Assembly: GCA_024695475.1 (NCBI GenBank)
Contig: JAILIC010000075.1
Coordinates: 54,985-118,984, forward strand
DNA length: 64,000 bases
Direction: 5' to 3'
From: Treponema sp.
GTDB taxonomy: Bacteria; Spirochaetota; Spirochaetia; Treponematales; Treponemataceae
Under the pieces are notes generated by a model, which worked only from the letters and a program-made list of their open reading frames with translations, ran no database searches and had not been told where the DNA came from. A program made the translations under genes and the position numbers. Positions within the stretch are counted from its first letter, which is position 1. Every line of letters starts with the position of its first letter. Shown here in pieces: positions 6,576 to 57,246 of this stretch.

Positions 6576-7386
6576 TATTTTCTCCAATAGACTGCGCATC
6601 CGGTACCGCATTATGCTGCGATTTTCTGCGCTTTTTTCGATTACGTTTCAAAAAAGTTTGTTCCGTAATCTCCTCAATCATCTGTTCGGCTTCTATAGTG
6701 AGCATACCTGAGAGACGAGCCATACCGATCATATCTGGTCTGTTAGCAAGTGTCTTTTCAAGCCGCTTTTTTAGACGCCACTTCCTGATATTTTCATGGT
6801 TACCAGAAGTTAATACTTCAGGTACTGCCAAGCCCTTGTATACTGGTGGACGTGTATACTGAGGATATTCAAGGAGGCCGCCGCAATAACTTTCTTCTTC
6901 AAGAGATTCACTGGAAATAACACCATCAATTAATCGATACACCGTATCAATAATAACCGTTGCTGCTACTTCACCGCTCGACATGACATAATCACCAATA
7001 GAGATTTCGTCATCAACGTATGAATCTATAATCCGCTGGTCGATACCTTCATATCTACCGCAAATCAGTACAAGATCGTCTTTACGACTTAATTCCAACG
7101 CTTTTTTTTGTGTAAAAGGCTTACCGCCCGGCGTTACATAAATAACGTGTTTCTTGTATGCCTGCACACTATCAAGCGCGCGTCCCAGAGGCTCCGCCAT
7201 CATTAACTGGCCAGCGCCTCCTCCATACGGACTGTCGTCACATGTACGGTGCTTATCATAGGCAAAATCCCTGATATTCACCAAATCGTAGGCAATAATT
7301 CCCCGTTCAACCGCTTTCGCCATGATTGAGTTTTCGAAATAAGCGCGTGGAATCTCGGGAAATAAGGTCAGCACTGTAAATTTCAT
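6553..7386 (-). CDS. trmD: tRNA (guanine37-N1)-methyltransferase TrmD with basic C-terminal extension
   Basis: [46 protein letters not shown]. Confidence 0.95.
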
Positions 7387-7390
7387 GGAA

Positions 7391-7954
7391 TTACTCCAGA
7401 ATCCAGAGGTGCATCAGCTCAATGGTTCCGTGTTTTACATCGACTTTACCAATAAATTCCTTATTAAAAGGAACCAGTACCGTACGATTACTACCGGAGT
7501 CATCTACACCCTCGGAGAGAGAAACCTCTAAAAGGTAACCACCTCCGCCTTCCAATACGTCTGTGATTGTTCCTACCTGTTGGGCAGGTGCAGTCTTTGC
7601 TGCCAATCCGTCCTTACTTTTGTCTCCATTAATGAGAGAACAATGTCTAAGATCTTCTATATACCACTCACCTTTTGCAAGAGGGGCAGCATATTTACGT
7701 GGAACAACAATTTCCCATCCGGTGTATTTTCGTACATCTTCGGGGGAATCAATTCCCACAAGTTTCATGTACAAGGTTCCTGATGCAGGCTCCGCATATT
7801 CTACTTTGCAGAGTTTTTCTACGTCATTACGCCTTAAAGTAACTTCTTCCAAAACGGCAATATGCTCGTATTCACCAGAAGCACTTTCAACTTTAAATTC
7901 ACCCGTAACACCATGGGCGCCACGAACGAAACCTACTGTTAGCTTTTCAACCAC
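7391..7954 (-). CDS. rimM: Ribosome maturation factor RimM
   Basis: VGFVRGAHGVTGEFKV; PRC-barrel C-terminal region. Confidence 0.88.
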   Translation of the reverse strand: MVEKLTVGFVRGAHGVTGEFKVESASGEYEHIAVLEEVTLRRNDVEKLCKVEYAEPASGTLYMKLVGIDSPEDVRKYTGWEIVVPRKYAAPLAKGEWYIEDLRHCSLINGDKSKDGLAAKTAPAQQVGTITDVLEGGGGYLLEVSLSEGVDDSGSNRTVLVPFNKEFIGKVDVKHGTIELMHLWILE

Positions 7955-51455: not shown

Positions 51456-51881
51456 ATGAACTGGATGAACAAAATAATTGCTTATTGTCTCTTATTTGTA
51501 ATAACAGGAATTGTAATCTATAGAACTCATGGAAGAATAAGCCAAAAGCGCTATTGGATAATTGAGACTATGATGATTGTAGGATGTATTCTTGTTTGGG
51601 CATTTGCAATAGTTATGCTATTGGTTTTTCACAATCGTCTCTTTTATATCCTGGCTAGTATTGCTTCACCTTTTTATTTCTATAAACATGCGCAACTGCA
51701 ATTTTTGCGCTATCATGATTTAAATTATTCCGGCTGGTATTGTTTGCTCAACCTTATTCCGTTCGTTGGTCTTTATTTTTGGATTATACGAATAATAAAA
51801 CCACGAACTGATTTAATAAATGAATTTGACGAACCTCTTGATTATTTAAAATTTATGAAAAAGACCAAATTATATCCTTAG
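51456..51881 (+). CDS. DUF805-like small membrane protein
   Basis: GRISQKRYWIIETMMIVG...QFLRYHDLNYSGWYCLLNLIPFVGLYFWI. Confidence 0.6.
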   Translation: MNWMNKIIAYCLLFVITGIVIYRTHGRISQKRYWIIETMMIVGCILVWAFAIVMLLVFHNRLFYILASIASPFYFYKHAQLQFLRYHDLNYSGWYCLLNLIPFVGLYFWIIRIIKPRTDLINEFDEPLDYLKFMKKTKLYP

Positions 51882-52331
51882 ATGAGTTTGATTGAAAAAA
51901 ATGTTTTTGATTTTTATGTAAATGGTATCCAGTTTGAGTATCGAGAATATAAAGGTCACCACCAATACGAAGTCTATGCTATGACACTTGAAGATAATAA
52001 GATATTACACGACTATTGTCTCAACAATCTAAAACAAACCGAAACTGCACCGAGCTATGACTCAAATTATAAAATTTCATTTCTTGATGATGGCAATTTG
52101 TTTGAAAAAATAAGAAAAGACTTAAAAGCACTGGTTGTAAAAAATGGTGCTATTATAGTAAATGACAGTGAATGTATTGTGAGAAACAATTACGGCTTGT
52201 ACGAGCTTGTTTACCATAAAAAGTTTGCTGATACCATTCCACGTTTTTCAGAGCTTGAAGCTATCGGGGATTATTTGTGTCAAACAATAAACAAAGCTCA
52301 ACTGCGCAATTATTTAAAGAGTATCACTTAG
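51882..52331 (+). CDS. Hypothetical protein
   Basis: Directly abuts the upstream CDS. Confidence 0.6.
   Translation: MSLIEKNVFDFYVNGIQFEYREYKGHHQYEVYAMTLEDNKILHDYCLNNLKQTETAPSYDSNYKISFLDDGNLFEKIRKDLKALVVKNGAIIVNDSECIVRNNYGLYELVYHKKFADTIPRFSELEAIGDYLCQTINKAQLRNYLKSIT
52299..52328 (+). repeat. 30-bp direct repeat, copy 1 (3' end of hypothetical CDS)
   Basis: CAACTGCGCAATTATTTAAAGAGTATCACT, identical to 53755-53784. Confidence 0.95.
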
Positions 52332-52362
52332 AATCCCCTACCAGCTGATAAAAGCTTCTACG

Positions 52363-53658
52363 CTACATACTGCTGATTGCCCAAAGCGGTATGTTTGTAA
52401 GCCAGTCCTGCTTTCGGTAATTTGACATTGAAGTTCGTACAGCATATTCAGGACTATATTTTTCACAATATGCTTTAAGACTTTTTGCCTTTACATTTTC
52501 TTCTGCCTTAACCTCAAGCGGAACAACATTTTTTCCTTTCTGAATCAAAAAATCCATCTCATATGTAGATTTTTCACCAGAGTAATAGTACGGCGTATAA
52601 CTTGTTGCCGCCTTGATTTCCTGCAAAACATATTGTTCAGTAAGAGCACCCTTAAATTCAACAAAAATATCATTTCCGCTTATAATGCTCTCTTTATCAA
52701 GCTCGCTCAACGCCCCTAAAAGCCCGATGTCGTTAAGATACACCTTAAAATCTGAAAAACTGATGTACGATTTTAATGGAACAGCCGGCTTTGAAACTTT
52801 ATGTACTTTATAAATAAGTCCTGCATCTTCCAGCCATTGCAATGCAATTTCAAATTCCGACATGCGAGCTCCGCGTTTTATTTGTCCAAAGAAGAATTTC
52901 TTATTTTCCTTTGCAAGCTGCATCGGAAGCGAATTCCACACCATTCGGATTCTTGGAAGTTCCGTTGCGTTTACGTGCTTTCCAAAATCACCTTCGTACT
53001 GACTTATGATCTCATTTTGAACCTGCCGTACTTTATCATAATCACCCGTCTGCACAAAAGTCAGGACAGCTTCTGGCATTCCACCTGTAAAATAATAAGT
53101 ACGCAACAATGGAATAAAACTTTCTCTCAAATCTGATAAAAGCGGATTTTCTGGATTTTTTTCTTCAACAAGAGAGGCAAGTTGTTCTTCGCCTAGTGCT
53201 CGCAAAAATTCTGAAAAACTCATTGGAAAAAGCCGGAGCTCGTTTACTTTGCCAACAGGAAAGGAAAGTCCCTCATGAATGCTTACTCCTAATAAAGAAC
53301 CAGCCGCCACAATGCAATACTCCCTTGCCTCCTCGCAGAAATATTTGAGCGACTCAACAACTTTTGGTGCAGACTGAACTTCATCAAAAATAACAAGCGT
53401 TTTTTGTTTCTCAATTTTTACATGATGGATAATCTCCAACATTGAAATTATACGGTCTGTGTCATAATCTTTTTCAAAAATCTCAGAATCCTTTTTATTA
53501 TTGTAAAACGAAATGTACAAGGTGTTTTCAAAGTAGTTTTTTCCAAACTCTTTTAAAAGCCATGTTTTTCCTACCTGCCTTGCTCCCCACAGAATAAGCG
53601 GCTTTCGGTCAGGATTTTCTTTCCACTCTTGTAATTTTACGATAAAATTCCGATACAT
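52363..53658 (-). CDS. AAA ATPase with C-terminal DUF4143
   Basis: MYRNFIVKLQEWKENPDRKPLILWGARQVGKTWLLKEFG; VIFDEVQSAPKVVESLKYF; YSGEKSTYEMDFLIQKGKNVVPLEVKA. Confidence 0.93.
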   Translation of the reverse strand: MYRNFIVKLQEWKENPDRKPLILWGARQVGKTWLLKEFGKNYFENTLYISFYNNKKDSEIFEKDYDTDRIISMLEIIHHVKIEKQKTLVIFDEVQSAPKVVESLKYFCEEAREYCIVAAGSLLGVSIHEGLSFPVGKVNELRLFPMSFSEFLRALGEEQLASLVEEKNPENPLLSDLRESFIPLLRTYYFTGGMPEAVLTFVQTGDYDKVRQVQNEIISQYEGDFGKHVNATELPRIRMVWNSLPMQLAKENKKFFFGQIKRGARMSEFEIALQWLEDAGLIYKVHKVSKPAVPLKSYISFSDFKVYLNDIGLLGALSELDKESIISGNDIFVEFKGALTEQYVLQEIKAATSYTPYYYSGEKSTYEMDFLIQKGKNVVPLEVKAEENVKAKSLKAYCEKYSPEYAVRTSMSNYRKQDWLTNIPLWAISSM

Positions 53659-53709
53659 ACATCTATTATAGAATACATATATCAAGTTTGCAATTATTCC
53701 GACGAAAAA

Positions 53710-53753
53710 GTGTATAACTTCTACACAAATTCGCCCGAATAAGTGTACTACAC
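53710..53753. promoter_or_regulatory. Two tandem operator-like palindromes upstream of the DUF4143 ATPase
   Basis: GTGTAtaacttcTACAC (53710-53726) and GTGTAcTACAC (53743-53753), 33 bp apart, in an imperfect tandem repeat. Confidence 0.55.
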
Positions 53754-53754
53754 A

Positions 53755-53784
53755 CAACTGCGCAATTATTTAAAGAGTATCACT
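53755..53784 (+). repeat. 30-bp direct repeat, copy 2 (noncoding)
   Basis: Identical to 52299-52328. Confidence 0.95.
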
Positions 53785-53814
53785 GAGATTCCCCGGTCTG
53801 CTCGCAACAGTCCC

Positions 53815-54573
53815 CTATTCTATGATTTTCCCATCCCGCGAGATCACAACCACTCGCCATGGAAGAAATTTTCCGCTTGCTTTTAACGCCTCAGTTGCTG
53901 CACGTTCAAGTCCACCACAGCAAGGAACTTCCATCCGCACAATCGTAATGCTCTTGATACTGTTATTGCTGATTATCTGTGTAAGTTTTTCCGTGTAATC
54001 ACCTTCATCAAGTTTTGGACAACCAATCAGAGTAATATGATTTTTAATAAAGTCTCGATGAAAGGCTGCATAGGCATACGCCGTACAGTCTGCTGCAATC
54101 AAGAGATGTGCATTTTCAAAAAAAGGAGCCTGAGTTGGAAGCAACTTAATCTGTACCGGCCACTGTATCAGTTCGCTGGGAACAACATGACTATCATAAT
54201 TTCCAGATGTTTCTACAGGAGGCATCTGTTTCTCCACTGGGGCATTATTACGATTAAAAGTATGCATCGCACTACCTGGACAGCCTCCCGCATGTGCCAT
54301 ATGTACTGATCCATTGCCTCCTTTTTGTGATGCCAAAATCTGTTTCCGCATTTCTACCGCCTCAGGACTATAAGCAACACTTTCCCTCTCCTCAATGGTA
54401 ATTGCACCCGCAGGACAAGCAGGGAGACAGTCTCCAAATCCGTCGCAAAAATCATCACGCAAAAGATGAGCCTTACCATTTTCCATAACTATCGCATTTT
54501 CATGACAGGCAGAAGCACATAGTCCACAGCCAGTACATTTATCTTCATCAATCTTTACAATCTTTCTAATCAT
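53815..54573 (-). CDS. 4Fe-4S ferredoxin-domain protein
   Basis: CTGCGLCASACHENAI and CDGFGDCLPACPAGAI; C-terminal cysteine-containing domain. Confidence 0.85.
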   Translation of the reverse strand: MIRKIVKIDEDKCTGCGLCASACHENAIVMENGKAHLLRDDFCDGFGDCLPACPAGAITIEERESVAYSPEAVEMRKQILASQKGGNGSVHMAHAGGCPGSAMHTFNRNNAPVEKQMPPVETSGNYDSHVVPSELIQWPVQIKLLPTQAPFFENAHLLIAADCTAYAYAAFHRDFIKNHITLIGCPKLDEGDYTEKLTQIISNNSIKSITIVRMEVPCCGGLERAATEALKASGKFLPWRVVVISRDGKIIE

Positions 54574-54658: not shown

Positions 54659-55315
54659 ATGAACCAGAACGCACTTAAAAAAAATCCTCTTTTTGCAGGA
54701 ATTTCCGAAACTGATCTTCCAGATGTTCTGACTTTTTTAAACGGTACCGTACACCAACTAAGCAAAGGGCAAACAGTTTTTTATTCAGACACAGTAATAC
54801 ATCAGATTGGAATTGTTCTTGAAGGACGGATACAAATTGAAAGCACAGACTTTTGGGGCAACAAAACTATTTTAGACAGTCTTGGTTCAGGAACAGTTTT
54901 TGCAGAAACCTATGCTCTTACAAAGGTTCCTCTGATGGTTGATGTCCTGGCAACACAAAATTCAAAAATTCTTCTTCTGCAGACAGATATTCTTGAAAAA
55001 ACAAACAACAAGTTTTCACAAATCATCACAAAAAATCTTCTTACTATTTCAATGAAAAAGAATCTTCACCTTTCACAGCGTATTTTTCATACCAGCGCCA
55101 AAACAATTCGAGGACGCCTTTTATCTTATCTTTCCTCACAGGCTCCACATAATGTAAAAACCGCTGAGTTCGATATTCCTTTTGACCGTCAGCAGCTCGC
55201 TGACTATCTGCAAGTAGACCGTTCGGCACTCTCCGCCGAGCTCAGCAAAATGAAATCCGACGGACTCATTGATTACTGGAAAAATCATTTTAAGCTGCTA
55301 GAAAACTCCAGATAA
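54659..55315 (+). CDS. Crp/Fnr family transcriptional regulator
   Basis: cNMP-binding-like N-terminus; C-terminal HTH DRQQLADYLQVDRSALSAELSKMKSDGLIDY. Confidence 0.92.
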   Translation: MNQNALKKNPLFAGISETDLPDVLTFLNGTVHQLSKGQTVFYSDTVIHQIGIVLEGRIQIESTDFWGNKTILDSLGSGTVFAETYALTKVPLMVDVLATQNSKILLLQTDILEKTNNKFSQIITKNLLTISMKKNLHLSQRIFHTSAKTIRGRLLSYLSSQAPHNVKTAEFDIPFDRQQLADYLQVDRSALSAELSKMKSDGLIDYWKNHFKLLENSR

Positions 55316-57172: not shown

Positions 57173-57198
57173 ATGACCTATTTGTCAAAAGCCAAACG

Positions 57199-57246
57199 CA
57201 AGTAGATCGCTCAGCCCTCTCTGCTGAGCTCGGCAAAATGAAATCA
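57199..57246 (+). pseudogene. Fragment of a Crp/Fnr C-terminus, partial duplicate of 55210-55257
   Basis: Encodes QVDRSALSAELGKMKS vs QVDRSALSAELSKMKS in the intact gene; roughly 41 of 48 nt identical by eye. Confidence 0.8.

Follow-up and report, generated by a model that had tools for sequence, protein, structure and literature searches.

PDC-S01 is a PADLOC candidate for single-gene phage defence and ranks among the putative defence genes that are most abundant across bacteria and archaea. The passages of PMC12988326 that treat the family give it fourth place by frequency among prokaryotic 'defence' systems, state that experimental validation is pending for most PDCs and describe the candidacy of PDC-S01 as resting on guilt-by-embedding alone, and the passages of PMC13356809 on the same family place it among the most abundant in the rumen. 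A 33-bp array, cassette limits and flanking repeats go unmentioned in the passages that a search by family name retrieved from these two papers. Our literature search on DUF4143 or its mobility returned one passing mention, a combined-term search gave nothing, and neither a function nor a way of spreading was found described for PDC-S01. Defence is a candidate role of the protein.

The window (the whole 64-kb stretch of Treponema DNA analyzed) carries a PDC-S01 gene on the minus strand (52363-53658; 431 aa). Its product was a full-length match to the PADLOC profile (E 4.4e-181, residues 1-430), and Pfam AAA_14 and DUF4143 were both above cut-off. Among 60 relatives, G25, G30-K31-T32 and D92-E93 (Walker A/B) as well as E382-x-K384 were invariant, and D369 was kept in at least 90%. 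In the predicted structure (mean pLDDT 88), residues 330-410 adopted an a-b-b-b-a-b arrangement bearing D369 and E382/K384, matching the expectation for a PD-(D/E)XK nuclease; the C-terminal part modelled alone gave low confidence and was left out of the interpretation. Pfam, PADLOC, the model and the conserved residues together describe an AAA_14 ATPase with a predicted nuclease-like DUF4143 domain, which we take, from inference and general knowledge, to belong to the PD-(D/E)XK fold. A fold search returned the archaeal Walker ATPase 2qen first, with Orc1/Cdc6 initiators among the next matches.

A perfect 30-bp direct repeat with an imperfect extension had been reported around this gene in a sequence-only reading, with one copy ending a coding sequence, the other in noncoding DNA and exactly the ATPase and its promoter in between; all these points were confirmed. 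The repeat (CAACTGCGCAATTATTTAAAGAGTATCACT) occupies 52299-52328 and 53755-53784, with a spacing of 1456 bp, and can be lengthened to 40 bp with 2 mismatches (38/40; 52299-52338 and 53755-53794, both on the plus strand). The left copy forms the 3' end of the ORF 51882-52331, including its stop codon, whereas the right copy is noncoding and lies 20 bp from the stop codon of a ferredoxin gene. Nothing else than the ATPase gene (52363-53658) and its promoter region of ~90 bp is enclosed. With up to 3 mismatches allowed, a third copy was absent from the 64-kb window and from the 3.17-Mb genome, shuffles yielded none (0/100), and a search of 146 genomes of the genus found the repeat in this genome only. 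RNA families and tRNAs were searched for close to the locus, and none was detected.

The ORF at the left copy (149 aa) proved to be the 3' part of a longer host gene (51456-52331, plus strand), which encodes a DUF805 domain and an uncharacterised C-terminal domain; its first half (51456-51881) shares the reading frame of the second, a single TAG codon being all that parts them. Homologues in ten genomes of the genus were unbroken single ORFs of ~300 aa, and their C-termini align with QLRNYLKSIT, encoded by the left repeat. This indicated that the left copy is native coding sequence and, therefore, that the right one, noncoding and beside the ferredoxin gene, is the extra copy. The in-frame TAG of the host gene (51879-51881) is directly followed by an ATG, and may represent either a nonsense mutation or the border between two reinitiating halves. 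On the far side of the insertion, the ferredoxin-type 4Fe-4S protein gene (53815-54573, minus strand) and the next, Crp-like gene are conserved in relatives, among them cassette-free sister species, and neither the host gene nor the ATPase gene is adjacent to them there. A 48-bp direct repeat, 85% identical, was also seen nearby (55210-55257 and 57198-57245); it corresponds to the helix-turn-helix end of the Crp-like gene, and the copy at 57198 is a degenerate fragment, probably a gene remnant. In another genome, the same DUF805-type host gene has an unrelated insert at its 3' end (L068 compared with L069), so that this gene end takes other insertions too.

Flanking repeats across the family were assessed as the best ungapped direct match between the upstream and downstream flanks of 157 PDC-S01 loci, with a threshold score of at least 17. 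PDC-S01 loci showed an excess of flanking direct repeats: the threshold was reached at 17 of the 157 loci, compared with 0.03 expected when upstream flanks were paired with the downstream flanks of other loci, with 0 inverted matches within the same 157 loci, and with 5 among 401 other ORFs that were taken from the same sequences as controls (Fisher p about 1e-6 vs. PDC-S01). A lack of flanking repeats at other DUF4143 loci, which the sequence-only reading had named as an argument against acquisition, was thus not observed. The same reading had pointed to the other DUF4143 genes of this genome; of these, L064 had no flanking repeat, and contig ends made L005 and L006 impossible to judge. The second close PDC-S01 copy of the genome, at G000:C87:47054 (L005, L062), stops exactly where its contig stops, so that the sequence at this place may be repeated or structurally variable.

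The repeats measured 20-166 bp and differed in sequence and length at every locus, most loci had none, and several duplicated the 3' end of a neighbouring gene. Apart from the window, clean cases included a complete Glaesserella parasuis plasmid (L221, 69/75 bp), L141 (64/66 bp, at the 3' end of the neighbouring CDS), L074 (23/25, at a CDS 3' end encoding SSHSSGKF*) and an isolate genome (L095, 24/26); L188, L124, L092, and L086 were further clean and independent cases. At least 8 of the 17 were less clean: the repeats of L076, L077, L091 and L225 were dispersed or palindromic, those of L177 and L134 were self-matches of the array or overlapped it in part, L205 had an end borne by the cassette and L168 a fragment of a tRNA; these should not be counted as evidence. 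Counting the nine clean cases alone weakened the difference from the control ORFs (p 0.005, the controls not having been cleaned likewise). A convincing direct repeat was present at about 10% of PDC-S01 loci only, and many loci come from metagenome assemblies, in which junctions may be wrong.

Insertion at the 3' end of a gene with restoration of that end is typical of integrase elements. Together with a dif-like TGCGCA in the window repeat, this would fit att-like sites at which an integrase or a Xer recombinase excised and integrated the cassette. Fixed att sites are disfavoured because each locus has repeats of another sequence and length; moreover, neither the unit nor the neighbouring genes that were examined included a recombinase, and the window repeat was absent elsewhere in the genome, so that we regard this explanation as highly improbable. 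Excision of the unit by recombination had been the other suggestion made from the sequence; neither an excised allele nor a circular form was found. A Xer/dif-like reading, taken from the TGCGCA motif, was dropped, as repeats at other loci differ.

The limits of the cassette were defined independently by comparison with relatives (~160 compared, with flanks available up to 1.5 kb). In six rumen Treponema-type relatives (77-84% protein identity), shared DNA started at 53747, 8 bp inside the right repeat, or further inside, and ended at 52362-52379, in the stop codon region, with no homology beyond. Many pairs of cassettes with 88-98% DNA identity in unrelated contexts had in common only a stretch from about -90 to -206 (counted from the ATG) to +3 to +39 (after the stop codon); a few near-identical pairs corresponded to orthologous loci, where homology reached further. 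For an Acinetobacter plasmid and an E. coli chromosome, the common left limit was at -111, at the array, and the shared block ran on rightward. Thus, the PDC-S01 gene and its operator array move between contexts and species as one defined unit, the limits of which are the outer edge of the array and a point just past the stop codon. Chance, or a purely local tandem duplication with no relation to the ATPase, could account for a single locus, and such repeats did occur at ~1% of control ORFs; it is nevertheless a very remote explanation, given the lack of matches in shuffles, the enrichment across the family and the coincidence of the window repeat with limits that were obtained from other species.

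Presence and absence of the cassette were also compared at particular sites. In the sister species G020 and G053, whose flanks are 90-95% identical, the cassette of G020:C7 was missing from the orthologous site of G053:C20, where the two flanks enclose ~730 bp of other DNA, and a 96% identical cassette was located at G053:C13 in another context. The G053:C20 site (L260, about 7166-7897) contains a different single ORF where G020 has the PDC-S01 cassette, and looks as if it were exchanging small one-gene units. In a Bacteroides plasmid (L223 3867-5286, compared with L269 3176-4600), the cassette replaced a stretch of nearly its own length (1.42 kb), spanning from mid-hipB to the end of hipA in a hipBA operon, with no duplication; the Bacteroides plasmids are mosaic. 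Of 5426 E. coli genomes, 4 had a PDC-S01 relative, and these seem to represent a single chicken clone; the E. coli gene (L251, NZ_CP121149.1:70280-71593) was 95% identical to the Acinetobacter plasmid copies and sits in a MADS/HipA defence island near dinD-yicG-ligB that has no counterpart elsewhere. A clean empty allele with a single repeat copy, proposed earlier as a check, was searched for at the window locus, at L074, in E. coli and in the Bacteroides plasmids, and was not found; the sister-species site held other DNA, as described above. At the window locus such an allele could not be read because the left-flank gene does not adjoin the ferredoxin gene in relatives, and for L074 the relatives gave the right-flank gene only. 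Carriers are few in the collections that offer strain-level depth (E. coli, plasmids).

We consider it probable that a self-contained mobile cassette of ~1.4 kb, made up of the PDC-S01 gene and its own operator array, was inserted in the window with duplication of the target. Cassette acquisition with target duplication had already been suggested from the sequence, and it is now well supported by the finding that the right copy is the extra one, by the end of homology 8 bp inside the right repeat, by unrelated flanking repeats above chance at other PDC-S01 genes and by near-identical cassettes in differing contexts. The cassette would have entered at the 3' end of the host gene and ~40 bp of target would have been duplicated, so that the end of the host gene stayed intact and a second copy was left beyond the cassette.

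The main rival to this insertion is recombination with a donor bearing a related gene end. In this case, a fragment or circle consisting of the end of a gene and the cassette would have recombined with the same gene of the recipient, by single crossover or one-sided homology, and the two repeats would be the donor and recipient alleles. Such an origin is compatible with the differences of 3-13% often seen between repeat copies and found at several loci, with the location of several targets at gene 3' ends and with L086, whose copies run into different C-termini (EETWSSNE* vs. EEAFQ*), as if a foreign end had been received. However, cassettes with 88-98% identity were found in unrelated contexts that have no gene end in common, and the window repeat occurred nowhere else in those genomes of the genus that were searched. 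Donor recombination is therefore possible, but we hold it to be somewhat doubtful.

Upstream of the gene, a promoter-like TTGCAA-17 bp-TATAAT was read from the sequence (53665-53693, minus strand), with the -10 box ending 6 bp before the ATG. Two operator palindromes accompany it on the same strand: the inner one (TACACTTTTTCGTCGGAATAATTGCA, 53689-53714) overlaps the -35 box and lies exactly 33 bp from the outer one (TACACTTATTCGGGCGAATTTGTGTA, 53722-53747), of which 53747 is the outermost base common to the cassettes of other species. At the 157 loci, the array core AAAA[AG]TGT occurred on average 2.27 times per 200-bp upstream region vs. 0.11 downstream. Core copies on the same strand were spaced by 33 bp in 151 pairs and by 32 bp in 19, and those on opposite strands mostly by 16 or 17 bp; together these spacings give a palindromic full unit, ACACTTTTT-N6-AAAAAGTGT, that recurs every 33 bp. 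The centres of the units were locus-specific (2.4/8 mismatches within a locus vs. 5.0/8 between loci). The array accompanies the PDC-S01 gene across phyla, and was seen in spirochaetes, Lachnospiraceae, Bacteroidota, Fibrobacteraceae, Collinsella, Pasteurellaceae, Acinetobacter, Vibrio, and E. coli. As the inner palindrome overlaps the -35 box, the array may be a putative autorepressor site bound by the PDC-S01 protein.

Adjoining the outer edge of the array, an IS-like conserved end of ~110 bp at best (TGTCCACTT...AGTGGACA-type repeats...TTGACTGGTACA) was observed in about ten PDC-S01 cassettes, mostly from Treponema (L171, L173, L184, L188, L200, L202, L205, L210, L005), and the DNA beyond it varied. 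This end, delimited by TGTCCACTT and TTGACTGGTACA just outside the array, could suggest that PDC-S01 is passive cargo of IS elements, plasmids and defence islands, the repeats being mainly dispersed intergenic repeats or terminators. The dispersed or palindromic nature of some repeats (L076, L077, L091, L226) and the presence of some copies on plasmids or in the MADS/HipA island point in the same direction. In contrast, the window repeat is confined to one locus and one of its copies is mostly coding, the limits of movement fit the array and the stop codon and not an island, and neither mispaired flanks nor control ORFs yield such repeats. Passive carriage is, in our opinion, unlikely.

With respect to the mechanism of the favoured insertion, the duplication could have formed at the moment of entry, from offset nicks or breaks that were filled by repair. 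Duplications of variable length, their absence at most sites and the 1.4-kb replacement in hipBA point to the repair of offset breaks more than to a classical transposase. It is speculation that the predicted nuclease of the cassette itself makes these breaks, for which it is a candidate. A more far-reaching and rather improbable version would have PDC-S01 as an autonomous single-gene element, whose protein recognises its own 33-bp array and catalyses insertion by offset cuts, giving long, variable duplications or replacements. If this were true, the abundance of the 'fourth most common defence system' would owe at least partly to selfish mobility, and the locus-specific centre of the array would be an identity tag. 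The mobility of a bare gene with its array provides exact boundaries to clone and a DNA ligand to test, and raises the question of whether the AAA-nuclease serves as an effector in defence, as the enzyme of its own mobilisation, or in both ways.

Several known systems share part of these features. Iteron/ORB arrays are bound by Orc1/Cdc6-type AAA+ proteins, which appeared among the fold matches, and the DNA repeats of PDC-S01 are likewise helically phased; nevertheless, the PDC-S01 array lies at a promoter and not at an origin, and is a putative protein-binding site. Integron gene cassettes resemble the PDC-S01 cassette as single genes that move compactly with a structured repeat at one edge, whereas the PDC-S01 array is upstream and overlaps the promoter, and no attC-like element, integrase or cassette array was seen. 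Integrase elements that duplicate the 3' end of their target keep the host end and leave the displaced copy on the far side, as occurs in the window, at L074 and at L141. In contrast, the PDC-S01 cassette has a different target each time; a search for a tyrosine or serine integrase with a constant att core found no integrase in the unit, and the repeats were locus-specific. No transposase (DDE, HUH or serine) was present in the window unit, where the AAA_14-DUF4143 gene is the sole gene, and no terminal inverted repeats occurred at the window ends or at the aligned cassette ends, palindromes being found on the promoter side only. Like insertion sequences with target-site duplication, the PDC-S01 cassette has sharp ends, varied sites and direct repeats private to each site; unlike them, its repeats are not of fixed length (20-166 bp, none at most loci), are often much longer, and one insertion replaces 1.4 kb.
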